From positions 27,918,131 through 27,982,130 of the forward strand of contig NC_045140.1 of NCBI RefSeq assembly GCF_008831285.2: DNA of 64,000 nucleotides, written 5' to 3'. The position numbers and the translations under genes were made by a program. The DNA is from Nymphaea colorata (lineage: Eukaryota > Streptophyta > Magnoliopsida > Nymphaeales > Nymphaeaceae). Below the pieces are notes generated by a model. That model did no database searches. It saw only the letters and a list, made by a program, of their open reading frames with translations, and had not been told where the DNA came from. Shown one piece after another: positions 8,785 to 63,167 of the stretch (positions within the stretch are counted from its first letter, which is position 1; every line of letters starts with the position of its first letter).

Positions 8785-8869
<85 letters not shown>
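8785..8869. repeat. (TA)n microsatellite
   Basis: About 85 bp of uninterrupted TA dinucleotides lie in intergenic DNA. A short second TA tract is at about 9022-9038. Confidence 0.97.
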
Positions 8870-9823: not shown

Positions 9824-12800
9824 ATGGCGATGAAATCTTCATTCCTCCATCTTCCAGTCCCAAATTTCAAGGGCTTTTCAACGATTTCCGAATCCAAGAA
9901 CCTGTCTTTTCCGTCGTCGACATCACTATCTCAGCGGCCACCACCGCCATCACCGTCGTTACCGTCTTCTGAGACAATTTTCTGCGGCAAGCAATCTGTA
10001 AGAAGAGGGAAGCAGAGGTACCCGTCGGAGAAGAAGAAGCTAGAGAGGCAATTCAAAGACCTAAACAATGTGGAGAACAAAGAGGAGGGTTACTGGAGAT
10101 TCTACAAATTGGCGGTTCCGGTGCAGAAGGATCCGGGCAAAGACCATATCGGCATTTCAGATGGCCTCCTCGAGGCCGTTGCGAAGGCTCTCAAATTCCC
10201 GGTAACTGAATCAGATTTTCCATATTTTATCTTTTTCCCGTAATTTTCCTTCTGTTATTCTTGATTGATACGTGCGCTATTTCCATGTTCCGTGTATATG
10301 CCCTTTGATGTAGGTTGCCTCATTGTTGCCTCACGAGGCGTTTTCTGTCGTCAGAAAATCGTTCGATGCCAGAAAGGTTCGTCGACCCATCACCTTCCTT
10401 TCATTTTGTTATTTTGCTTATTATCCTCTGTTTGGTGCCTATGTTCTTACTCTATTCGACTTGTCCTTTTCATTTTCTGTTATCGGGTAGTTCATCTGGT
10501 GTTGTGATTTACTACTTACTTTTCTATTACTCTATTGACTTGTCCTTTCAATTTCCGTTGGAGGACATACTCTTTGGCAGGTGTGAGCATTCCACTGACT
10601 ATTCAATGCAACTTATGGTGCAGGTGCTGAAGGAACCGAAGTTTGTATACACTGTTGACATGGACACGCAAAAGCTACTGAGTTTGCAGCCTCGTGCCCA
10701 GGACTTTGTTTCTCGGTTGGAGCCTAAAGCAGGGGTTGTGGAGCATTTTTCCACTGAAAAGGATTCTGGTGACTTGATAAGCATCTTAAATGGCTATACA
10801 GCGACCAATGTTAGCGGTGTACCCGCAAATGGAACTCGTGCTGTTTCTTCAAATAGTCTCCACAAGTTTCAGGGTGGAAAAAAGCCCAAAATTGCCGTTG
10901 TGGGTAGCGGACCATCTGGGTTGTTTGCTTCTCTTGTTCTTGCAGAACTTGGAGCTGATGTTACTTTAATAGAGAGAGGACAAGCGGTCGAGCAAAGAGG
11001 GCGTGATATTGGTGCACTAGTTGTGCGACGAATTTTACAACCTGAAAGCAACATTTGCTTTGGAGAGGTGCATGTCTTCGACTCTTCTGTCACCTTGTTT
11101 CTGCTTAACACTGTTCGGTTTTGATATGGGTTCTTGGCACATGGTATTTGCATGTGGTAAGGAGAGCACAATTATGTGCAGCATCAAAATGGTGCACCAT
11201 AAACTACATCTGTATTTACATTTAGAACTTGGAGTTTCCAAATTTGGATCGAGGCAGTGAGAAGCCTTCAAGAACTCAATTTTTATCAAGAAGCTGCTGT
11301 GATTCTTTAATGACAAATTTACCTTTTTCGGTGCTCTATGCCTTTGTTTTCATGTGCTTTTGCAGCAGAACCTGTTCCTGCTACATGCTTTGGTGGTGCA
11401 TCTAGTAAACGGTCTTCTGATTTTCCTTATTTGTCTTAAACTATGTAGCATCATTAACTTATGCCATTTTTACTGTCACTTAAGCCGTACAAATGCATTA
11501 TTTTTTCAAGCCAGTATGTTTTAAGTGACAGTAAAATGGTATAAGTGACAAAAAAATGGTATAAGATAATGATGCTACACAGTTTAAGACAAATAAGGAA
11601 AATCAGAAGACCGTTTACTAGATGCACCACCAAAGCATGTAGCAGGAACAGGTTCTGCTGCAAAAGCACATGAAAACAAAGGCATAGAGCACTGAAAAAG
11701 GTAAATTTGTCATTAAAGAATCACAGCAGCTTCTTGATAAAAATTGAGTTCTTGAAGGCTTCTCACTGTCTCGATCCAAATTTGAAAACTCCAAGTTCTA
11801 AATGTAAATACAGATGTAGTTTATGGTGCACCATTTTGATGCTGCACATAATTGTGCTCTCCTTACAACATGCAAATACCATTGTGCTCTCCTTAAGACA
11901 AATAATGGCTACTGGGAAATGCACTTATCTTGCAAACAGGGAAAATAATGGCTACTAGGCATGCACTTATCTTCTAATTTTCCTTATTGGTCTACTAGGC
12001 ATGCACTTATCTTATGAAAGTAGCCCCTGTTCGGATTTTGGGAATTCATGATACTAATAAATTGTGTAAATATTTTGTCCTACCGGGACAAGTTACTATC
12101 TTTGTTGTTCCTTCTCCCAACTATAACAATATAACTTGTTTTCTTATAATTTTGCATATATCATCAAGAATTTGCTATGGACTTAATGCACATCAGGGTG
12201 GTGCAGGTACTTGGAGTGATGGGAAGTTGGTGACTAGGATTGGGAGGAACAGTGACAGCGTGCAGGCAGTATGATTCTCCTGAATTTCTTGATTGCTTTC
12301 TTTTGGGTAACATTATGAATAGACAAATATGATTCCAACCTTATATCATACTTTGACATTTTTTTTTGCTTTACTACTGGATTTGGATTTTGGAGTAATA
12401 AACCCTTTATAGGAACATGCTTTCAGATTTTTCTTAGCCTTACAGTGGCATTTCTAATAAGGTTGATCCTTGTCCTCATTTTTGTAGTGATTTTGCATCT
12501 TCTCTCAGTAAGGTATTATTTTCTTTAGTTATATCTGCTAGTTTGGTGAATTTTTCTGTCTGCAGGTAATGAAAACTTTGGTTCAGTTTGGTGCTCCTCC
12601 AAATATCTTAGTTGATGGTAAACCTCATCTAGGAACTGATCGGTTGATCCCCTTGCTGCGGAACTTTCGGCAGCATCTGCAAAACCTGGGGGTACATTAA
12701 ATTTTACCAACTCACGGTGATGCCTCTTTTTCATTGGTTATTTCTACCCATTGCTGCTGCAATGATTTCATATATGCAGGTTGATATCATGTTTGGCACC

Positions 12801-15800
12801 AGATTAGATGATCTGCTTGTTGTGAATTCACGTGTTGTGGGGGTTGAAGTTTCCAATCCAAGGTCGGATTTGGGCAATGGTAAGAGGAAGCTGGAATATG
12901 ACGATGTTATTCTTGCAGTTGGGCATTCAGCTCGTGATGTATACAAAATGCTTCTTCTGCACAATGTTGACTTGAAGACAAAGGATTTTTCTGTGAGCCA
13001 ACCAACCTAATTTCTCTCCTCATTTCCAACATATGGAAAATGCTTCTTCGGCACTATGTTGACTGATGCTTACAAATATTAACTGGAAACAGGTTGGCCT
13101 ACGAATTGAGCACCCACAGGAGCTAATAAACAGCTTACAGGTTTGGTTACTTATCCATCTTTTAAAGAAAAATTGGTCGCAATGTATTGTAAGCTTTCAT
13201 AAATTTGTATGTTCAGCGGTTCTTCCTGTCCCATGATAAGTTTTTGTGATTGTTGGGTGAGTTCATTTCATGCAATCCATATACATATGCACATGCATAA
13301 ATATACTCACACATAGTCCAGATATTATTTGCATTCTATCTTTTGTGACTTTCCACAAAGTGGAGATATTACCTTCATTCTTTTCATATTTCTTTCTTTT
13401 CAAGTATAATTTAACTATTTAAATGAATATGTTTGAACTTGCTAGAGCTGAGTTCCCATGATATTCTCTCAAAGAATCTTGTCTATGTTCATCTATAGAT
13501 GATAATTCATTCTTTGATAGCTTTAGTACCGAACCTAATGTTAGTTGCTGATGTTATCTATATCCATCTGTTATATCATGTCGAATGTGTTCGGCATATT
13601 GATGCTGGGAAGAGACGTTTCTGTATTTTGGCAGCTTGGCTTGTTGTTGATTAGCAGTCTTCCTGATACACCATACTGCACTTGATTGTGCCTGTTAGTG
13701 AGTTCTTATAGAGATGCACAGATTTTTTTTTTTTTTGCTTGAGCATGATCATACTTCTGATATGTTATATAGATAAAGTTTGATACTGTCATATTCTGTA
13801 GTTGACTGAATCAGTTCTACAGTATAATTCATTGGCTTCAGAAGTTCACCAAGGACGTGGAAGAGTGCCCGTTGCTGATTATAAGCTAGTGAAATATGTT
13901 GATGGAAATGCTATTACAACAGCTGGTGGTTTAGATGAAAGGAGGCGTAGTTGTTACTCATTCTGCATGTGTCCTGGCGGACAGGTGCGTTCCTGCACTT
14001 TCTGCTTCAGTAATTTTGGTTATTTCTGTTTTCCTTTCAAATTAAAGACTTGTCTTGCACTGGCAGGTTGTTCTTACTAGCACTGATCCATCAGAGCTTT
14101 GTATCAATGGCATGTCATTTTCTCGGCGTGCATCTAGGTGGGCAAATGCAGCTCTTGTTGTTACTGTCTCACAAAATGACTTCACTGATCTTGGCTGTTA
14201 TGGGCCCTTAGCTGGTGTTAAGTTTCAGGTACCATTATGATGCCTGTACTGTCTCATAAAAGCAAATGTTCCCCAGGAGCACGTACTTTTCATTTTTTAT
14301 CTTCTAGAAAGTCTTCTGTATATCTCTTGTACATTCGCTCTGTTTTATGACTGATGAAGCCTCTATTCTTGTCCATCATGCATTTGTTTCTTGTCTGTAG
14401 AAAGAAATCGAAAGAAAGGCTGCCTCAATGGGGGGAGGGAATTTTGTTGTACCTGTTCAAACAGTTCCTGATTTCCTCGATGGCAGGTTATCAGGTAACG
14501 CATTCAGGTGAAAAAAAAAAATCTGTGTCTGTTCCAATGCCTAACTTTTTCTTTGGACATGTTTCAGTAGCCCCTTTACCATCATCAAGTTATCGTTTGG
14601 GTGTCAAGGCATCAAATCTCCATGAGTTGTTTCCTCTTCATATAACGGAAGCTCTGCAACGGTCAATAGCTCTCTTCAATGAAGAGGTTTGGACATGTTT
14701 CTTTCCTTAATCAGATGCTTTGGATAAATCAATGTTTGTGCGAGCTTGCTTTCATTCGGTTCTCTAACATGCATCGAAAAATGCTTCAGATGCCTGGATT
14801 TGTTACAAAAGATGCTCTTCTTCATGGAGTAGAGGTACTATGGCCCACAAGTTCTTTTATGTAGTATATTTAGAATTGTATTCATTGATAACTTTTCATG
14901 TGAAACTGGTCCATATAGCTCTTTTTTTTTTTATTTTCTTCATTATCAACCAACTTGAAGCATTAATCTGTTTTGTAATGAAAATTGTTTGAATACTATA
15001 TGTTGGTAGATGTAGATAATCTCGATTTCTAATTCAGAAAGTGGTCAAGTGACTTGGTGCTTCCGCTATCAAGTCTCTGACCAATTTTTGATAAGCCATG
15101 CTGGAGGGTGCTTCATGACATTAAGAATGAAAATTGCAGCCTCGGTTTCTATTTCCAATTTGATGTGTTGCTTAGTCAGTAACTAGGATGTGACTTAATA
15201 CCGAGCATGGAGTCCCAAAGCAATATCAAGTACATGAAAACCAGAATGAAAGCTTAATGGACATGTTGTCTATCTATGCTTCTAGTTTTAGCTTAGTTCT
15301 GATGGCACCTTTGCAGCTTTTACCCTTTTTGTGGAATATTTGTTTGCTGTTACTTGCTAACTTGACATCCTTCCACAGTAAGTTGCTATTCTTTCGTATG
15401 GATGTGCTAGCTGATGTTAGGCAATATGTAAGGTTGTTTGCAACACCGTGGGCAACTATCATTCTCCTGTTGAGTTCCTGTGATGTATAACCAAAATGAT
15501 CTAACTGGGAAACACAATAGGAGAGAAGTTTTGGATGGCGTTCCTGTTTTTTGTTCATATTAGTGTTTTGTAAATTTTAATACATGTTTGCGGTTTCTAA
15601 GAGTGTTTCAATGCAGTTCCTATGTTGAACAGGTAACTTTTTCATAGGTGCGCAATTATGAAATCCTCAATTGAGTTATTCATGCTATAACTGTCTCAAT
15701 GTTGCAGACTAGGACAAGTTCACCTGTTCAGGTTCCACGTTGCAACGATACCTATGAGTGCTTGTCCTTGAAGGGGTTGTATCCAATTGGAGAAGGAGCT

Positions 15801-41062: not shown

Positions 41063-44000
41063 ATAGACAGACAGCACATCACTAAGGCAATGTTTAATAG
41101 TTCCTTTCATAGTTCCCACATACAATCTCATAAAACATAAATAGACTAAGAAAAATGTGGTTTTGATCGGTTACAATCCAAACGTATGAACAGCATACCA
41201 CGGTACCAGTATTGGTGTACAGCTGTACCGGCACTGGTACGTGGGTATAACCCATGTACTTATGTGATTTAACATTAAAAAAAAAAATTGATACTCAGAT
41301 TGCCATTGCTAAGCCTGCAGTAGGCTTGATACAGCTAATGTGAAAAGGATGTGACTTAGTTCATCAGACTCTAGCTCATAAAAAGCCCATTCTGGCATTT
41401 GAACAGGAACTGTCATGAAAAACTCCTCATTTGGCTAGTGATACACTTGATGGTAGCTAGGATTCATATGCTGCAGTTATTTACAGGAACAATAGAACTA
41501 AAACAAGACATGAGTCCTTCATATAACGTGCCCTCACATACAGACGGTAGGCACAAAATCAATAGCTTTATGTGGTCTCTGCTGTGAAGTGCACACCCAT
41601 TTTGTTTACTGTTTAAAAAAATAATTGAAGACAAAGCATTCAGTGTCTAGAAAGTGCCAAAACAGCAAATGATATCATGGCAGCAACTATTATAAGAGTG
41701 GACATGGCACATACCCTGATTTTTTTTGCATAAAACATAAGCAAAGAGCACAGTTATACTACAGTAAAGTGATGAATCAACCATGATGTTATCAGGTGGT
41801 TTAGGAACTTTACAGTAGAATGGCCGCCCATTTGTTTTAGCTTACATCATTTAACTAAGCCACTTAAATACAAACAAAAGAGTAGCATTGACAATGAGTA
41901 AAATGATACACAGATCTTATCAGCAAAATTAAAAACACATTGTTAAGAAAATCAACAGAAACTGAATGAAAATATATCAAATAAGTATGTCCAGCATACC
42001 TCATGGTCATCCAATCCCACATCCTCAAATGCTGAAAATGCATCAGCTGACAATACCTCAGCCCACTGCATATGAGTCAGATTGACTGACATTAGGAAAG
42101 AAGTGCACTTGTTACCATAGCTAGCTGGTGTCAACCAACTTAGTTTTGACAACCATCCAGCAGAGAATTAACTGAGAAGTGTCTATCTCAAGGTGGCTTT
42201 AAAGCATATTTAATCTGGTGGTAGCACGGAGAGGAGGAAAAGGACCAATATACACAATTTTATAAATGGAAAATCTTGACTTATATTTACAAACAGAAAA
42301 TCTCGCCCTTCAAAAGAAGAGAGAAACAGGAAAACTGATTTTTAGGAGAACGTCGCATTTTAAGTTGGGTGTGACTACCCATTTTAACGAAGGGAAAAAC
42401 ATATTTTGGTTCAATATCTGGGTTAACACCTAAAACCTGGTTAAAAATCAGGTCTTCTATGCTGTCCAAACTGGGCTTACAAGGGAAAGCATACTCAAGT
42501 ATATTACAAACAAAGAACTAAAAAAAAATAACAATGCAAAATTTGAAATTCATGGCAGTTTCAAGTCATTTTCTTATATTCTGATCCCCAGAATTATTAG
42601 ACACGAAAATATCAACTTTCTAATCAACCAAGCCTTTCAACCTGAGAACTTTCAGGAAGAGTTTTACTTAACCCATAAATCAGAAGCACAAACGTAATGG
42701 TGGAGACAGATGTTTTACATGAATGCATGTGCACAAGAATCTGCGTATCTAAACGTCGAACTTTATATTAACTAACATATCAACAAGAGTAGAGAATTGC
42801 ACAAACCTTATAACTATAATACCCAGCATCATATCCTCCTGGAAAATGTAAATAATGAAATTAAATCATTTAAGCAGCTAAAGAAGCAAAATCTTCCGAA
42901 CGGTAGAAAGTAATCAAGAATCTACACAGACCTGCAAAAATATGACTGAAGCTACACAGAAACCTGTCTTCTGGTAATGGTGGCATCACTTGTGTTCTCT
43001 TACATATCCTCTGGTCAACATCATAAATTGACTCTGTTCCACCAGGTGTATAATTAGCGTGCAGTTCCAAATCAACGCTTGCGAACCTTATCTACAAATA
43101 CAAGCACTCACTGTTTTAGTCAATGCAAACAAACACAATAAGGACTTACTACCACCTATCATATGTTCAAGATCTCCCAGTTGAATTGAAAGCACCTTAA
43201 GGCATCAGTAGTGCTTTACATAATTTGGCAAAGTAATCTACACCCCATATGTAGGCATGCATTTATGCATATGTACATACAGGATCCTTAGATTAAACAG
43301 GTGGCCTCAGTAATGACAAAATTCCTGGGAGAGACTCTGCTTTCAGGAAATTACATCACGCATTTTCACTAGAAGCACCTGAAGCCTGAAGGTGAGGCAA
43401 TAAGTGTTTCTTTGTCTAATAGATGTGCATGGGGCTCAAAATGAATACTCCAACAGAAGTAGCTCAATGTCAGCTATCGTTTATTCAGAAAAAATTACAG
43501 GTCAAACAGAATGAAGTAGATATCACCTTGAACGATTGTCACATATATCGTGTACAAGTATTATACTGCAAAGAATTTTTCAGGTATAATACGGCAAAGT
43601 TGTATATCTCAGGAATATCTCAAGAAAATCTCCGCAAACTTTTTAACAGTACATAAAACATTTTATAAATCCTGAAACTTATAAAAAAATAAAAAATCAT
43701 AAAAATTACGAAAAAACGCGTACATGCGTATAATATGTGTTTTTTTCATGATTTGTATTCTCTAGAGTTTTTAAAAAACAAGACATGTTTTTTCACGTTT
43801 TATACAGCTGACTGTTTTTTCGCGTATTATACGTGTTTTTTCCGAAGACGCGTTTTCTGTGACAATGCCTTGAACTAACCGTAGCTAAATGACAAAAAAA
43901 GGAACAAACAAAATTCTGATAATAATAACAAAAAGAAAGAAAGGTTCTCAAGAAACCTGAACATGACGGTGCGTTAAAAAAAATCTAGGTATAAAACTGA

Positions 44001-48504: not shown

Positions 48505-51500
48505 ACTAGTGACCTTTTCTGTTCCTATTTTCATAAACATATAGTAATGTACATCTAGCCAAATAGACATGATCTCCATGTCCGAAAACCTACAAATCAA
48601 CATGAAATTCTTATTTTTCTGATGCATAGATAGAAATTTTATTAGCCAAAAGAGCTTAGACTGTTTATCTTGAAACCCAGACAACATATATTTATGCACC
48701 TAAATAACATGAGTTTACATTGGTTTCAAAGGGAAACACATAGTTTTTACATTGCTTTCTAGGGTGTCGGACATGAAGATCACGCCTATGTGGTTCTTTT
48801 CACAAGAAAACAGATCTGAAGGTGAAAGGTTTGGCAATACATTCACTTGAGAGCACATGATAATTCGTTTATTTATTTAGGTTTATATCTAAAGGACAAT
48901 TTTAAAATTTAAGCTAATCAAGAAAAATTAACACCTGCCAGTGCAGCAACAGACACACAGAGAAAGAGAGAGAGAAAGAGAGAGAGAAGGAGAGAGAGAG
49001 AGAGAGAGAGTATTGTACAGTTTATGGTTCAAACCAAGTCACAGAAAACGTGTATTAATCGAAAAAACGCATATAATACGCGAAAGATATGTCAGCCATA
49101 TAAAACGGCAATTAGACACTTTTTTTTTAAAAATGCCAGAAAATAAAAACGTGAAAAAACATGTATTATACGCATTTTTTCACGTTTTTTGTATTTTTTA
49201 TTAATTTTTATTTTTTATAACTTTCAGGATTTATTAAATGTTTTAAATTTTTAAAAAATTTGCCAAGATTTTCCCGAAATATACAACTTTTCCATATTAT
49301 ACCCAAGAAATTCCCGAAATATACAACTTTTCCATATTATACCCGAGAATTTCCTCGCAGTATAATACCCATACACAATATATGTGACAATGGTTCAAAT
49401 AAATTCCATATTAGAAATTCTTTTTCAAAACTTCAAGCTACTAAAAGGTTAAAAAATGTTAGAATTCCACACACATGACACCACTATGAACCAATACAAC
49501 AATGTCAGAGCTCTAGTATGTATGCTTATTTGGGTGTATGTATGGAACCAAAATTGAGCACCTAGAATTGAAGTTCCAGTGCAGAAATCTTCATCTCATC
49601 AAGTTATCTGGTGCTGAGACTAGCACCAGTTGAGGACATTCTGTGAATGTCTATAACAAGCCTTACCTTGAATTAACACTAAGGATAAGATACATTTAGG
49701 TAGCGTTTCATAAGCCGGAATTTTACTGTAGCACAGGAAATTTAATTCAAATTTTCAAAATTTTTCCAGTTTCATCAAACATGGAATTTTTTTTTTACCG
49801 TTGGGGCTCAAAACGGAATAATATTTCCGGAAATATTATTCCAGCTGAGAGACGGAATAATATTTCCGGTTTTTTTTTTTTTTTAACCGTTGGGGAGGAA
49901 GAAGGGACGGGGAGGAAGGAGGGAGGAGGAAGAAGGAGGAAAAGGGAAGGAGGGAGGAGGAAGAAGGGAGGAAGAAGGGAAGGAGGGAGGAGGAGGGAGG
50001 AAAGAAGAAGGGAAGGAGGGAGGAGGAAGAAGAAGGGAAGAAGGGAGGAGGAGGGAGGAAAGAAGAAGGGAGGAGGAGGGAGGAAAGAAGAAGGGAAGAA
50101 GGAAAGAAAGGAAGGAGGGAGGAGGAAGGAAGGAGGGAGGAGGAAGAAGGTAAGGAGGGAGGAGGAAGCAACAGAGGGTTTACCCTCTGCTGGCGACGTC
50201 CGCTGCTCACAATCGGAGAAAGAGAGGGGCGGAAGCCCCTCTAATCGTGGCTGATGGGAAAGGAAGGAGAAAGGGCAGGCCTGCCGCCCACCCTTTTTTC
50301 CCTCTCCGTCTACACCCTCGTCGCCATCATCGGTGATGGCCCTCTTCCTCCTTCTTCCTCCCTTCCCTTCCCTCACCCTTTTCCTCCTCCTCCTCCCTTC
50401 CCTTCCCTTCCCTTCTTCCTCCTCCTCCCTTCCCTTCCCTTCCCTTCTTCCTCCTCCTTCTTCCCTCGCTCCCTTCTTCTTCTTCCCTCCTTCCCTTCCT
50501 CCTCCTCCTCCCTCCCTTCCCTTCCCTTCTTCCTCCTCCTCCCTTCTTCCTCCTTCCGCCCTGGCTCCCTTCTGCCTCCTCCCTCCTTCCGCCCTGGCTC
50601 CCTTCTTCCTCCACCCTCCTTCCCTTCTTCCTCGTTCTTCCTCACCATTTCCACCAAATGAAGAATTTTTTTTCTAGAAAAATATTTCCTCTATAACAAA
50701 CAGAAGCTGGTTTTGGAAAAACAGAAAAATATTTCCCATTCTTCAATTCCAGAAATTTATTTCTAGAAATTTTTTTCCAGAAATATATTTTTGGCCATCA
50801 AACACTACCTTAGTGAAACAACTCTTCCCAAGTTCCCACTGTTCCTGACTCTCCATGGCACCATTGGGGTTCAATTTCATATACTTGAGCATTTAAATTT
50901 TGTAACCCTCCCCCCAAATTTATTTATGAAACATAGGGATGTCATAATTCGCTGGTACCAACATAAAGCATATGACCACCCGAACCTAATTTCAGCACGT
51001 CTTATCTACTATTTCTCATTTAATGTAAGGAAACATGAACAAAAGGAGACAAGCTAAAAAAACCACAGCATTTTAGCCATATGTTTCACATGGATATTCA
51101 GAATATCAAATGGTTTCTTAGCATTAGCTATAGTTTTTGTCTCCAACAAATAAATCGACTAAGAACAATAGCATTTAATACAAAATCTAAAAACAGTTCC
51201 CGATGCACAAAACACATCAATTCAAGTACTATGAAGTAGAGATGACAGTATATGTGTGTGTGTGTGCATGCACTTCAACCTATAGAATTAACAATAACAA
51301 TACCATTACCAGGTCAATGAAAGGCCTTATACTGTATTTTGCTGCGACAAATTCATAAACAGTAAAAAACAAACAACACATACCTCCTTTATATCATACT
51401 TTGATTCACGAAGTCTTTCACTCCAAAAGGTAATGTCCCAATGTTTCAAATCATCTGCTTCAACTGCACCCTGCTCTCTTGAGAAAATCTTAAGGTCCTC

Positions 51501-57500: not shown

Positions 57501-60500
57501 ATTGGCCCATCTGTCTGAGGATTGTATCCAGTACTCATGCATAGTTTCGTTCCCTCCAGGGCAAAGTATTGCTACCAAAAGTTACTGCGAAACAAGGAAT
57601 CCCTATCACTTACAATCGACCTATGCATGCCATGGAGCTTCCCAACTTGTTCCTGAAAGGTATCCGTACACCCTTGGTTGTCAAGGGATGTGACAAGGAT
57701 ATAAAGTGAGTGTACTTCGACAGCCTGTCCACTACCACCCGCACCACAGATTTTCCCTTTGATCTCGGTAATCCTTCGAAGAAATCCACCGAAATGTTCC
57801 CCAAATGCGCATCAGAATTAGTAAAGGTTACAAAAGTCCAGCAGACTTCAATGACTCATATTTGTGCCTTTGACAAACGTCACATTGCTGCACATATTCT
57901 CGTATTTCTTCTTCTTTCCTGGCCAGTAGAATATGCGGCGAATACATTTATATATGCCTTTTGCTCCTTGGTGCCTGGCTTTCGGGGAATCATGGTATAT
58001 GGCCATTAATGCCCTGGTCAACCCAGACTCTGGTGGTAAATAAATTCTATTCTGAAATAGAGGTATGGTTTCCACCAGGTATACCCGTAAGTCTTCACTG
58101 GTTCTCCTTCCAGCCTCTTCTTAAGGTTATTCACTGACACAACAGTCTGATAATCTGAGTCAATTGGCCGAATAAGGGAACAGAATTGGTGAGCAGTAAC
58201 CACCTTCTGGTTTTCCACTTCATATTGTCTTGAAAGTCCTTCTACTGCACTGTCTTGAGATCATTTCTTATATCTAACTTCAAAGTCATAACCAGTTACT
58301 TTGAGTATCCATTTCTGCTGGGCAAGGGAATGGATCTTCTTTTGCATGCAATATCTTAAACCGTGATGATCCGTTTGCACAAAAAATCTCCTTCCGAGTA
58401 GGTAGTGATGCCACTTTTGGATGGCAGCGACCATGGCTATTAATTTGCACCCATACGCAGATTTCCCTTTAAATTTTTCTCTCATAGCTCTACTGAAGTA
58501 GGTGACATGATGCTGATTCTGATTGTGAACAGGGCCTATGCTGACTTCTGAGGCATCAGTCTCTACAATAAAGGGCTGCAAATAGTCAGGCAGCCTTAAA
58601 ATAGGGGCACTGCTGATGGCTTCCTTCAATTTGTTGAACGCCTCTATTTTGTTCTCCCTCCATTCAAACTGGCTATTCCTTAACGCGGCTGTGAGAGTGG
58701 CAATGATAGTCCCAAAATTGTTGACAAATTTTCGGTAATATCCTGCCAATCCAAAAAAAAACATGCAGTCCTTTAACTCCCTTAAGCACTTCCCAACCTT
58801 TTATCGCAGATACCTTCTCTTCTTCCATGTTTACTCCTCCCTTCAAAATGGTATGCCGCAAATATGTCAGACGACTGCTCCCGAAGAAGCACTTGGAGGC
58901 TTTGGCATGCAGTTGGCGATGAAGCAGCAACAGTGTTATCCATATCGTACGATACAACTCGTCTAGGTGAAGAAAACCCAGACGATACGGCTCGATACGC
59001 TTGCGTATCGTGCCCGTATAGAGTGTATCGTACGATACATGTAGTGTATCATATGATATACCCTGTATCTTACGATACAGAGTTAAAATTTGAAAAACGA
59101 TCCCAGGGCCCCTTTTTGAGTTATTCTTTTAAATTGAGACCCTCTCTAAACTTACCTAAAGGCTGTGAGAGGGAGAGATTTTGCTGGTTTCTCCAACAAA
59201 TCACTGTTTTGAGGAAGAAAGTAGAAACCATCAATTTGATGAACTCGTGATGTAGTTTACTAGACTTTGTAGCACTCTAAAGTCTAAAGTCAAAACTCGT
59301 ATGTGATAGATGCTCTTTAAACTTGTGATGGATCATGGATGCTTTAATATGCTATTTTCAATCTCTTAGCCTTACTATTCATTTTTCTGAATTTGTTGCT
59401 GATATATATGCCTATGGTTTATGAATGATGAATCATTAATGTTCCTTATGTGTGATGAGCTTTTTTTTATATGAAATACATTGTTCTTGACTTTTCTGTT
59501 TTTTTAGATATTTTTTCTTATTTTTTACTATTTTTAGTGTTTTTTAATTAAAAAATCAATTTTACAATGTGTTACGGTACATTTACGATACGTTATGATA
59601 CACTGTATAGGTTGGCCCGACTGGTACGCGATATGATATGCCAATGACAACATTGAGCAGCAGACTTAGGACCTATCAAAGAGGACTGAGATGCAAGCTT
59701 TCGTCTGAGCTAAAGACCAATATATCATTAAAAAAAACAGTACAAACTTTCTTAAGTAGGGAGGAAATATCTCATTCATGAGGGCTTGGAATGCGGGCGG
59801 GGGCATTTGTAAAACCGAAGAGCATTACCCTGAATTCGTAGTGCCCTTCGTGTGTTTGGAAGGCCGTATGTATGTCATCCTTGTCCATATGGATTTGGTG
59901 GTCCCCTACCCTCAAATCCAGCTTTGAGAAGACTCTTGCCCTTGCAAGTTCATCCAACAATTCTTCAATAACGGGAAAGGGATATCTATCATTGATCATG
60001 AGGGTATTGAAGGCCCTGTAATCTACACAGAAACGCCACGATCCATCTTTCTTTTTTACTAACAGGGCAGGTGATGAATAGGGGCTGCGATTGGGCTGTA
60101 TGACCCCTTCTTGCAGCATTTCCTTTATAAGTCTTTCAATCTCTTCAGTCTGGCCATAATCGTACCGACAGGGTCTGATATTTACTGGTTTAGCACTGGG
60201 CTCTATGGATTTGGTGGTCCCCTACCCTCAAAACCAGCTTTGAGAAGACTCTTGCCCTTGCAAGTTCATCCAACAATTCTTCAATAACGGGAAAGGGATA
60301 TCTATCATTGATCATGAGGGTATTGAAGGCCCTGTAATCTACACAGAAACGCCACGATCCATCTTTCTTTTTTACTAACAGGGCAGGTGATGAATAGGGG
60401 CTGCGATTGGGCTGTATGACCCCTTCTTGCAGCATTTCCTTTATAAGTCTTTCAATCTCTTCATTCTGGCCATAATCATACCGACAGGGTCTGATATTTA

Positions 60501-63167
60501 CTGGTTTAGCACTGGGCTCTAGCTCGATTCTATGGTTCAGTACCTTGGCTGGTGGCAGACCTTTGTGTTTTTCAAACACCCTTACAAATTCGGCCAGCAG
60601 AGGCTGCACAAACCCAAGTGGAGTGCTGCTCCCTTCTGCATGTGACTGAGATCCTACAGCACAAGTCATTAGAACCAGATGTAGGCATTCATTTTTTTGG
60701 CTTACTTTGCTGATCTATACATTCTCTTCGCTGGATCTTGCTGCCGGTACATTATTTTCACCCCCTTTTCCTCTAAAATTCATCTTCATTTCGATGAAAT
60801 CCCACTCCACACCCCTAACTGCCTTAGCCATTGTATTCCTAGAACCACGTCTGCTCCACCCATGGCTAAGGGGTACAACTCGATTTCAAAGTGTTGTCCC
60901 TATATTTCCACTACCTACTGTGGGCATTTGCCTTTGCATACTAATGTTACTGTCGTTGCCCGCCATTACTCTAAATTCAGACTGTTCTTCCACTAGGCAT
61001 CCACAAACCTTCGCTGTCCCTTCACTAAGGGGGTGTTTGAATTGCGCGGACGGCACTGCAGCCCGCAGTCTTCAGTCTATGCTGTACAGTTTTTGGCTTC
61101 GTGCAATCACCTACGAAAGTTTTGTCCGCAAACAAGGAAGCCTTATTGTGGACATGGGTCCATGAAATTTTCTCCAGCCTGAATAGGTTTAGTGTGCCAC
61201 CTATCTCTTCTACTAGGTACATATGCAACCGTTTGCATACATGCACTAGGTTTCAACGCTCATCGGCCATCGCACTGGAAGCATAGTCCCTTCCTTCTCC
61301 TTTCCTTAATCTGTTCAACAGTTCAGGGTTAAGTCACTTGATTAGGATATATTTCCCTTCAGGCAACTGTTTCGTGAACCCTCTTCCGATGCACTCCTCT
61401 TTCACAATTGTACCCCCTTAGCCGCAAGTCCCTTATTGACTTTGAGGTCCTTCAGCCCGCCTCCCAACCTATTGTATTTTTCTTCTGCAATTCAAGTCAT
61501 CACGAAGCTATCTAGTAGAGTTTGCAGTCACACTGCCTGCTCTTCCACTTTGATCTTATCCTTTAATCCTCCCACAAACACTTCTGTAAGCACCTCTATA
61601 GGCCTCCCACGGACCATGTTGTTCAATCCTGACATTCTAGGACAGACCTTCTCTGTCTTATCTTCGATAACTCGACATTGTACTCGAAATACGCTGATGG
61701 CCCAAACCTCACTGTTAGGTCTTCAACAAATTTCTCCGAAGGAGGTTTTCCTTGCTAGGACACCAGCCAACGGTACCACCTGATCATTGGTCCTTCCATA
61801 TGCACAGCAACATGCACAACTCTCTGTTCTGATTGGATTCCTTGGCATTCGAAAAACTGTTCTACTCTGAATATCCAACTTAAGGAGTCTTCGCCAAAAA
61901 ACCTAGGAAATTCCATCTTGGGAGTCTTGAGATTTCATGTCGTATCCCCTGTTCGATAGGAAGGCCCAACTGACCCATTCACGTTGGGATTAGGCATACC
62001 TGATATGTCGTTGGGTGGAGAGCGCAGCAAGCTGTTGCGCATCTCTGGTTCTGTTCAGCGTGGATTTTCTCCATTCGGATGCAGCCGACTGGACGATGGG
62101 TTGTCCGGTGCTAAGTGTTCTTCCATGCAATAGAGCATCTTTCTCATCAAGTCAGCTAGGTTTTGTTGCTCCGCCATGACTGTCGCCACCATCGACTGTA
62201 CCTTTGGTCGACTTCCATCAACTCTACTCGAGCTCCCCAAAGTTCTTCTCCACCTTCTCCCTTCTTCCCGCCATTACATGGCAAGCCTCCTCTGACTGCA
62301 TTCGGAAGTTTTCCAAGATGGACACGGTTTGCCTCGTTGTCATCATTCCTCGCTCTGATACTAGTTGGCAGCCTCCACCTCCGCAGAGACACTCAGGCAA
62401 AGTTGTTAACTCACACGCACCTCGATAACTAAGGAAATTAAGGCAAATCCCCTCTCCAGAAGGTTAACATTTCATTACTCAAAAGACTAACTACTTCGGG
62501 TCACCTCCCGACTACATATAAGGGTGATTACATTTGGGTAATTAAAAGAGAGCTGATCCAATATATGGAACAAACCCGATTCATGTATTGTTTATATTTT
62601 TCCCTTTTATTACGAGATCTATACTTTACTGGGTTGCTATCACAATGTGACGCTAACTTTTAGTTAACATTATGACATTGTGTATACCAATAAGAAGCAA
62701 TGAGAATAAACTGGGGAAGCCGGTTTAATTTCCCAAACCAGTTCAAATAGAAATGTGTGAAACATATGTTCCTGATCTAGAACCATAACACTTACATTTT
62801 TATTTTTCCATTACAGAGAATAGTAAGATATGCATGTTAAATAGGTACCATTACTATGTGTCAGTTGATGTATCAATCGACCATGGACCAGTGCAAAACC
62901 TAACCATGGCTACAAGCCTCATGGAAATGGATTGCAGACCTATGAAGAACCTTGAATTAAGAATAACCAGAAGTTTCTAGATGGAAGTACAAGCCACATG
63001 AATAAAACGGACGGTACCACCAGCTAAGAGGCAAGCTTGACAAAGAAAATTTTGATCAAGAAAAAGCAAAATGGAGAACTACATGAAAGAAAAACCTGCT
63101 GAATTTCATTAAACTGCTGTCTTTTCTCATCTTCCAGGGCCACGCCATTGAGAACAGCTTCTTTTAT
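38924..63167 (-). CDS. TOP: M3 metallopeptidase (thimet/oligopeptidase A type, TOP), C-terminal 564 residues
   Basis: Fourteen exons on the minus strand: 63167-63096, 56103-55960, 55811-55581, 55495-55405, 51505-51384, 48091-47984, 47894-47649, 47373-47228, 44147-44030, 43091-42932, 42838-42807, 42065-42000, 40123-40052, 39010-38924. All phases agree. The zinc site HEFGH is at 47358-47344; the third ligand is the Glu of VELPSQ about 25 residues on. Flanking blocks [42 protein letters not shown] and [20 protein letters not shown] are typical of plant TOP1/TOP2. These enzymes degrade short peptides, including cleaved targeting peptides in organelles (TOP1/OOP), or act in the cytosol (TOP2). The N-terminal ~140-220 residues, which decide plastid/mitochondrial versus cytosolic, lie beyond the window. 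Intron 47648-47374 has a GC donor (GAG then GCAAGT). The introns are packed with transposons; the exons look intact. Confidence 0.95.
41002..41060. repeat. (GA)n(TA)n microsatellite
   Basis: A GA tract followed by GTGT and a TA tract lies in a TOP intron. Confidence 0.95.
43534..43867. mobile_element. hAT-type MITE, family 1 copy a (334 bp)
   Basis: Ends read GATTGTCACATATA and TTCTGTGACAATG, inverted repeats of about 11 bases. Perfect 8-bp target duplications CCTTGAAC flank it (43526-43533 and 43868-43875). The interior is AT-rich with ACGCGTATAATACGTG-like palindromic words. It is the reverse-oriented relative of 49034-49391. It lies in the TOP intron between exons 44030-44147 and 42932-43091. 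Confidence 0.85.
44265..44687. mobile_element. hAT-type MITE, diverged relative (about 423 bp)
   Basis: Ends TATAGTCACAGAAA and TTTGTGACTATTTG form an imperfect inverted repeat sharing the GTCACAGAAA word with family 1. Flanking 8-mers GCAAACTC (44257-44264) and GCAAACTA (44688-44695) differ at one base. The interior is very AT-rich. A further AT-rich stretch at about 44810-45110 looks like a reverse-oriented relative, without clear ends. Confidence 0.55.
45358..46715. mobile_element. hAT-type element carrying a captured gene fragment (1358 bp)
   Basis: The element starts TAGGGCTGAACAACGAGCC and ends GGCTCGTGTGCAGCCCTA. It is flanked by perfect 8-bp duplications CTCCTACC (45350-45357 and 46716-46723). 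Sub-terminal arms are packed with GAGCTCGAG-type words in inverted orientation (45361-45540 and 46545-46710). There is no transposase. Between the arms lie pyrimidine-rich 5'-UTR-like sequence and a decayed copy of a host transcription-factor gene (46060-46544). Termini and 8-bp duplication are those of hAT elements; the cargo makes it a pack-type non-autonomous element. Confidence 0.85.
46060..46544 (+). pseudogene. Captured trihelix / SANT-like transcription factor fragment
   Basis: Plus-strand sequence encodes the N-terminal part of a plant trihelix (MADF/SANT-like) factor in two frames. First comes [18 protein letters not shown] in one frame. After a run of nine C bases (about 46131-46140) the frame changes to a His/Gln-rich tract, then an acidic [22 protein letters not shown], and [14 protein letters not shown]. 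The start codon position reads TTG. A segment expected after KWTD appears missing, and the copy stops where the conserved helix domain should continue, right at the element's arm. It is therefore a broken copy: lost start, frameshift, internal deletion and 3' truncation. The parent gene should be elsewhere in this genome. Confidence 0.75.
48466..48501. repeat. (TA)n microsatellite with palindromic flanks
   Basis: The TA tract is bordered by ACTAGTTTCCC on the left and GGGACTAGT on the right, so the whole block is a near-palindrome. Confidence 0.9.
48961..49010. repeat. (GA)n microsatellite
   Basis: An interrupted GA tract lies just upstream of the MITE at 49034. Confidence 0.93.
49034..49391. 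mobile_element. hAT-type MITE, family 1 copy b (358 bp)
   Basis: It begins CCAAGTCACAGAAAACG and ends ATATGTGACAAT, with perfect 8-bp target duplications GGTTCAAA (49026-49033 and 49392-49399). Its sequence is the reverse complement of copy a at 43534-43867. A ~37-base unit containing CCCGAAATATACAACTTTTC is tandemly repeated near its right end. Confidence 0.85.
49699..50809. mobile_element. Tourist/PIF-Harbinger-like element with polypurine and polypyrimidine arms (1.1 kb)
   Basis: Ends GGTAGCGTTTCATAAGCC and GGCCATCAAACACTACC are imperfect inverted repeats of Tourist type, flanked by TTA on both sides (49696-49698 and 50810-50812). The interior holds a 28-bp perfect palindrome (49815-49842, arm GGAATAATATTTCC), a G/A-only tract (about 49887-50170) and a C/T-only tract (about 50340-50650). 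Nothing in it resembles a transposase. A short non-repetitive core separates the two arms. Confidence 0.6.
49887..50650. repeat. Facing polypurine and polypyrimidine arms
   Basis: About 280 bases of GGAGGGAGGAAGAAGG-type purine repeats are followed, after a ~170-base mixed core, by about 310 bases of CTTCCTCCTCCCTTCCC-type pyrimidine repeats. The arms can pair with each other, and each mirror-like tract can form triplex (H-DNA) structures. Confidence 0.9.
52352..54504. mobile_element. hAT-like element, outer (2.15 kb, contains a nested element)
   Basis: Ends CTATGTTGTTAAGGC and GCCTTGACAACATAG are 15-base inverted repeats with one mismatch. Flanking 8-mers TTTATTTG (52344-52351) and CTTATTTG (54505-54512) differ at one base. 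Sub-terminal GCCTAGGC words occur at both ends. The interior carries many variants of TGTTATATGTATTG, a loose minisatellite, and is interrupted by the element at 52795-53802. No transposase was recognised. Confidence 0.7.
52795..53802. mobile_element. hAT-like element, family 2 copy a (1.0 kb), nested
   Basis: Ends CAATGTTATC and GATAACATTG are perfect 10-base inverted repeats. Perfect 8-bp duplications TTATGTAC flank it (52787-52794 and 53803-53810). Both sub-terminal regions are dominated by the palindromic word CGTATCGTACGATACG. It sits inside the element at 52352-54504 and is related, in opposite orientation, to 58931-59655. Confidence 0.85.
54555..54585. repeat. (TA)n microsatellite
   Basis: About 15 TA dinucleotides lie just downstream of the outer hAT-like element. 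Confidence 0.93.
56468..56732 (-). repeat. 3' LTR of the Ty3/gypsy element
   Basis: 265 bp, about 90% identical by eye to 62366-62642. Both share the plus-strand phrase CCCGACTACATATAAGGGTG. Confidence 0.9.
56733..56749 (-). other. Polypurine tract of the Ty3/gypsy element
   Basis: The minus strand reads CCTGAGAGGGAGGCAAT directly before the 3' LTR. This is the expected place and composition for the plus-strand primer. Confidence 0.75.
56760..58240 (-). pseudogene. Integrase and C-terminal region remnants of the retrotransposon
   Basis: Minus-strand pieces in several frames show an H2C2-type zinc finger region (57850-58000, [17 protein letters not shown]), integrase core (57640-57804, [12 protein letters not shown] and [15 protein letters not shown]), the block [13 protein letters not shown] near 56960, and a chromo-like end (ALEPTWEE). 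Stops and frameshifts separate them. Integration function must be lost. Confidence 0.85.
58931..59655. mobile_element. hAT-like element, family 2 copy b (725 bp), nested in the retrotransposon
   Basis: Ends CAGTGTTATC and GACAACATTG match the termini of 52795-53802. Flanking 8-mers AGCAGCAA (58923-58930) and AGCAGCAG (59656-59663) differ at one base. The TATCGTACGATA word occurs near its left end. It interrupts the reverse transcriptase between palm and thumb, so it inserted after the retrotransposon. Confidence 0.82.
59889..60520. repeat. 316-bp tandem duplication inside the reverse transcriptase
   Basis: Copies 59889-60204 and 60205-60520 are almost identical; I noticed only a few differences (for example ATCC against AACC near the start). 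Each begins ATGGATTTGGTGGTCC and ends ACTGGGCTCT. The unit is not a multiple of three, so it shifts the frame. Confidence 0.95.
62055..62240 (-). pseudogene. gag-like N-terminal remnant of the retrotransposon
   Basis: A 61-codon minus-strand reading frame lies shortly after the primer binding site. It is helical and Met/Gln-rich, as in gypsy gag starts. The rest of gag (about 61250-62050) is read only in broken frames, with a first half zinc knuckle near 61300. Confidence 0.55.
62352..62361 (-). other. Primer binding site (initiator-Met tRNA type)
   Basis: The minus strand reads GTATCAGAGC four bases after the 5' LTR. This matches the core of the initiator methionine tRNA complement used by many plant gypsy elements. 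Confidence 0.75.
62366..62642 (-). repeat. 5' LTR of the Ty3/gypsy element
   Basis: 277 bp, starting TGATAGCAACCCAG on the minus strand. It contains a ~12-base insertion relative to the other LTR. Confidence 0.9.

Follow-up and report, generated by a model that had tools for sequence, protein, structure and literature searches.

Intron 3 of a gene for a protein with FAD/NAD(P)-binding domains in Nymphaea colorata contains a 742-nt hairpin whose arms are near-perfect reverse complements; within their limits, our searches of the genome did not reveal a further copy. This hairpin is probably (probability of about 0.7) a single-copy structure made when a template switch duplicated intron sequence locally in inverted orientation, and its stem would be mostly neutral, with some dicing possible. 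It represents a known type of structure in clean form and, with its stem of about 340 bp, a large candidate for the birth of a hairpin by template switching. If small RNAs arise from it, it would provide a clean natural case of long intronic double-stranded RNA of purely local origin, seen before selection acts and free of confusion with a transposon family or a target gene. Apart from any small-RNA output, it adds one case to the intronic inverted duplications.

Host gene and intron 3

The window (the whole stretch of DNA analysed, 64 kb) carries the following features of the host gene:

9824–10201, + strand: first exon
10314–10376, + strand: second exon
10624–11067, + strand: third exon
11068–12196, + strand: intron 3 of the FAD/NAD(P)-binding-domain gene, GT...AG, with in-frame exons on either side
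12197–12268, + strand: fourth exon
12566–12691, + strand: fifth exon
12780–12992, + strand: sixth exon

The internal borders of these exons carry AG/GT and, once joined, the six give 432 codons without any stop, a count that covers the gene as far as exon 6. The product of exons 3–6 reaches the cut-off of six FAD/NAD(P)-binding Pfam families, among 16 families matched at E ≤ 1. The host protein also matches 31 NCBIfam families at E ≤ 0.001, the best 25 of the 31 all being far under their cut-offs. These domains are of oxidoreductase type. We provisionally take the gene to be PDE327-like, and its earlier description as a photosynthesis gene is a putative one. In Arabidopsis, AT4G30720 is designated 'pigment defective 327 (PDE327) - oxidoreductase' in a list of PMC8889267, under metabolism.

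The hairpin begins 73 nt past the start of intron 3, and 314 nt remain between it and the end of the intron; therefore, both splice sites of the intron lie outside the hairpin. Its wholly intronic location, proposed in an earlier reading made from the sequence only, is thus borne out by the exon borders and the stop-free frame. A (TA)42 microsatellite without any imperfection is found at 8785–8868 of the window, about 1 kb upstream of the gene.

The assembly yielded only one other relative of the host gene, which is located on C5 and comprises exon 5 and adjoining intron sequence, without intron 3:

L035 2817–3030 (within C5:22690500–22698499): host-gene relic, 75% DNA identity to exon 5 and the adjacent intron alone

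This relic was considered as a paralogue with an empty intron and rejected, as it matches the exon 5 region alone.

Structure of the hairpin

The sequence-only reading had placed a hairpin at 11143–11880. The inverted-repeat scan of the 64-kb window confirms that it is real and close to this place but sets its limits at 11141–11882 on the + strand, the earlier coordinates being 2 bases short on each side. Its parts are as follows:

11141–11483, + strand: left arm, 343 nt
11484–11520, + strand: loop, 37 nt, with a few weak pairs within it in the minimum-energy fold
11521–11882, + strand: right arm, 362 nt; it is the left arm in reverse complement, with an additional tandem copy of about 20 nt by the loop

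These lengths agree with the arms of about 340 and 360 bases and the 37-base loop previously announced. Without gaps, the arms 11141–11471 and 11552–11882 (331 nt) are 98% complementary and form the longest of the 127 ungapped inverted pairs of at least 40 nt detected in the window. In the gapped alignment of 11141–11482 with 11542–11882, 333 of the 342 columns are identical, in line with the near-perfect complementarity first described; the differences amount to eight substitutions (six transitions and two transversions) and one gap. Exact pairing of the arms reaches inward to 11483/11521. The core of the minimum-energy fold is an uninterrupted helix of 204 bp that pairs 11239–11442 with 11581–11784 and includes two G.U pairs.

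The longest exact inverted match in the hairpin is 112 nt, compared with a maximum of 18 nt in 200 dinucleotide shuffles. Folding of the RNA of intron 3, a check already proposed with the first description, gave −690.1 kcal/mol versus −260.9 ± 8.6 kcal/mol in 60 shuffles. As both the length of the exact match and the folding energy of the intron are far outside the shuffles, a chance origin of the hairpin is excluded. Among 169 overlapping 750-nt windows folded on the + strand, one overlapping the hairpin ranks second by folding energy. The first rank is held by a low-complexity stretch at 49876; the sequence at 49890–50640 consists of a GGA-rich block followed by a TCC-rich block, both of low complexity and roughly complementary. 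In a small sample of 20 stretches of 10 kb from C3, including introns and other sequence, no comparable hairpin (≥60 bp, ≥80%) was detected, the only structures found being AT-rich self-palindromes in 2 of the 20 stretches.

Ends and copy number

The ends of the hairpin do not display any target-site duplication (TSD), whether as exact direct repeats of 3–12 nt at the arm ends ±2 or as repeats of 8–10 nt with up to two mismatches at the arm ends ±3. Three 4-nt direct repeats lie near the ends, up to 15 bases away, but not at the ends themselves, and the dinucleotides just outside are AC and TG, not TA/TA. The absence of target duplications noted initially therefore holds for any of at least 3 nt at the ends.

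The whole assembly (407,766,735 bases, i.e. 407.8 Mb, in 783 contigs) was searched for other copies. The full left arm retrieved the two arms and nothing else at E ≤ 0.001. The first third and the last third of the left arm, each searched separately at E ≤ 10, also retrieved the two arms alone, and a query covering 11500–12198 gave five matches at the same threshold, every one of them within intron 3. These searches skip very common words and score the best candidates alone, so that their outcome is strong and not absolute. As a positive control, the 106-base repeat located at 49300–49405 of the window gave 430 first-look candidates; the 40 that were scored shared 83–100% identity with it and were spread over many contigs. 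This repeat is a member of a high-copy family and also occurs in inverted orientation at 43528–43620. A coding origin of the arms was considered as well and set aside, since Pfam returned nothing at E ≤ 1 for three translations of the left arm, which were chosen out of 12 frames and one of which has an X in place of a stop.

These data bear on the possibility that a MITE or a foldback element (Mutator-like, with long terminal inverted repeats) inserted into intron 3. The hairpin's size of 742 nt, its long terminal inverted repeats and its intronic location would all suit such an element and, in maize, TIR elements such as Mutator have hairpins concentrated in their terminal inverted repeats (PMC10760457). 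However, neither a TSD at the ends (3–12 nt scan) nor a second copy in the assembly was detected, whereas the control repeat was found. Taken together, both absences speak against membership in a MITE or foldback family, while being compatible with a single-copy element devoid of TSD, and they make a transposon rather unlikely. They also support the preference for a simple inverted duplication expressed in the sequence-only reading. Retroelement-like ORF pieces, recognized by eye, are found in the window on the − strand at 58261–60669, and this stretch includes a 316-bp tandem duplication (59888–60521, 99% matches).

Copied fragments and a probable origin by template switching

The right arm and the sequence located 3' of the hairpin contain several short duplicated fragments:

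11522–11565, + strand: tandem duplication in the right arm, 20-nt unit, 2.2 copies, 91% matches
11881–11895, + strand: 15-nt fragment that repeats 11851–11865 and is also the reverse complement of 11158–11172 in the left arm
11893–11905, + strand: 13-nt fragment that repeats 11584–11596, with a TTA overlap with the fragment 11881–11895
11952–12013, + strand: 22-nt tandem duplication, copies at 11952–11973 and 11992–12013
11977–11988, + strand: 12-nt exact copy of 11420–11431 of the left arm, enclosed by the 22-nt tandem duplication

In the flank 11883–12013, a stretch that was picked after the copies had been noticed, two 13-mers recur in the hairpin (mean 0.003 and maximum 2 in 1000 shuffles), as do five 12-mers (mean 0.014, maximum 4 in 1000 shuffles). 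The number of recurring 11-mers, 8, is under the highest shuffle count of 9.

A reverse-complement copy thus adjoins its source and is accompanied by short copied fragments, which would be switch points. Serial template switching would produce such a patchwork, in which a short sequence is shared, and the fragment copies located 3' of the hairpin suggest this mechanism. The birth of the hairpin can be pictured as follows. During an error of replication or repair, the nascent strand would have switched template and copied about 340 bases of the intron back as their reverse complement; further short template switches would then have occurred 3' of the hairpin. We infer the template-switching step from the arrangement of the sequence. 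According to PMC8794818, one template-switching event is able to produce a perfect stem, and such events are argued to have made hairpins of RNA genes at shorter lengths. The largest pattern of this type mentioned in the Discussion of that paper, a 59-bp one in rRNA that failed its authors' quality control, is nevertheless far shorter than the 340 bp proposed here. Moreover, the 3' fragments could have arisen later, through duplications of their own, as the flank carries its own 22-nt tandem repeat.

The divergence of the arms (K2P 0.024, from six transitions and two transversions at 341 sites) is low and agrees with the youth attributed to the hairpin from the start. If substitution rates between 4.5e-9 and 1.5e-8 per site and year are applied, which would be unsuited if the species is a slow one, the duplication would have occurred about 0.8–2.7 million years ago. 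Repair between the arms would make it older than this divergence implies. Inverted duplications can be misassembled; however, 9 of the 342 columns differ between the arms, a tandem copy is peculiar to the right arm and the flank fragments follow it, so that an assembly artefact is very unlikely. Low divergence, the lack of a TSD at the ends and the failure to find a repeat family together favour a local inverted duplication over a transposon.

Possible fate of the hairpin RNA

Intron 3 would be transcribed along with the host gene, and its RNA would fold into a near-perfect stem of about 340 bp, the intronic position implying that both arms belong to a single transcript. The likeliest fate would be that of a largely neutral intron removed by splicing. 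Some of the stem RNA might be diced without RDR, by DCL4 into 21-nt, DCL2 into 22-nt and DCL3 into 24-nt siRNAs, which could act mainly on their own locus. We infer transcription from the position in an intron, and splicing, dicing and neutrality likewise are inferences; the feeding of Dicer by such double-stranded RNA is plausible from the structure, as at the endoIR-siRNA loci of Arabidopsis. Splicing and debranching would compete with dicing of the intron stem. Endogenous long stem-loops of Arabidopsis give RDR-independent siRNAs of 21, 22 and 24 nt (PMC4687873). Maize genic hairpins, which have a median length of 25 nt and are mostly intronic, go along with elevated small-RNA levels and increased CHH methylation (PMC10760457).

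The sequence-only reading had viewed the hairpin as a structure from which a new miRNA gene might develop. Scans against Rfam gave five miRNA matches in one case and 18 at E ≤ 0.1 in another (best 1.2e-20), but none of the five or of the 18 reaches the gathering score of a curated family. The 18 matches fall in 13 families, five of which are hit on both strands, and identity with an Rfam miRNA family was consequently rejected; such sub-threshold matches are presumably what any long perfect stem gives. DNA searches of the assembly with the left arm, its first and last thirds and 11500–12198 did not reveal any second gene similar to the arms. Hence, the proposal of a nascent miRNA gene is weakened.

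A recently born hairpin-siRNA or proto-miRNA gene that regulates in trans would accord with the near-perfect 204-bp core helix inside a gene intron, with the Rfam similarities and with the description of long inverted repeats as probable small-RNA precursors in rice (PMC7649420); nevertheless, with no arm-like gene and no match at gathering score, it appears quite unlikely. As the genome searches did not reveal a relative of the arms at any other site, any siRNAs from the arms would most likely act in cis. Stem-derived 24-nt siRNAs could then methylate intron 3 and tune the host gene, in keeping with the small RNAs and CHH methylation of maize genic hairpins. At five of the six transitions that distinguish the arms, the left arm, read in its own sense, carries G or C, which fits deamination in the right arm; however, six transitions are too few to establish a methylation bias, and we regard this regulation as rather improbable. 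It is compatible with a template-switch duplication whose stem is mostly neutral, the degrees of confidence given here not being mutually exclusive. A more elaborate and somewhat less probable proposal would be that one template switch of about 340 bp gave birth, without transposon or target-gene ancestry, to a cis-acting hairpin-siRNA gene whose own locus is its sole homologous target and which feeds back on the host gene by RNA-directed methylation or altered splicing.

Comparison with known systems

The classic inverted-duplication model for the origin of MIRNA genes (Allen et al., as described in PMC3237417) involves one sequence that is present as adjacent inverted copies, as in intron 3. 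In contrast to this model, genome searches did not reveal any other (target) gene as the source of the arms; therefore, the ready-made trans target appears to be missing here. Template-switch hairpins (Monttinen and Loytynoja 2022, PMC8794818) likewise consist of a reverse-complement copy beside its source, but the patterns mentioned there measure tens of bases, up to 59 bp, and the present hairpin is far longer.

On the basis of its sequence and fold, the hairpin has the long near-perfect stem-loop of the endoIR-siRNA loci, such as IR71 and IR2039 of Arabidopsis, whose very long stem-loops are able to give RDR-independent double-stranded RNA (PMC4687873). Unlike these loci, it sits in the intron of a protein-coding gene, and its siRNAs are putative. 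It also resembles sirtrons (siRNA-rich introns; PMC5260113, PMC5545994), as intron 3 has, according to the same sequence and fold, an internal double-stranded structure.
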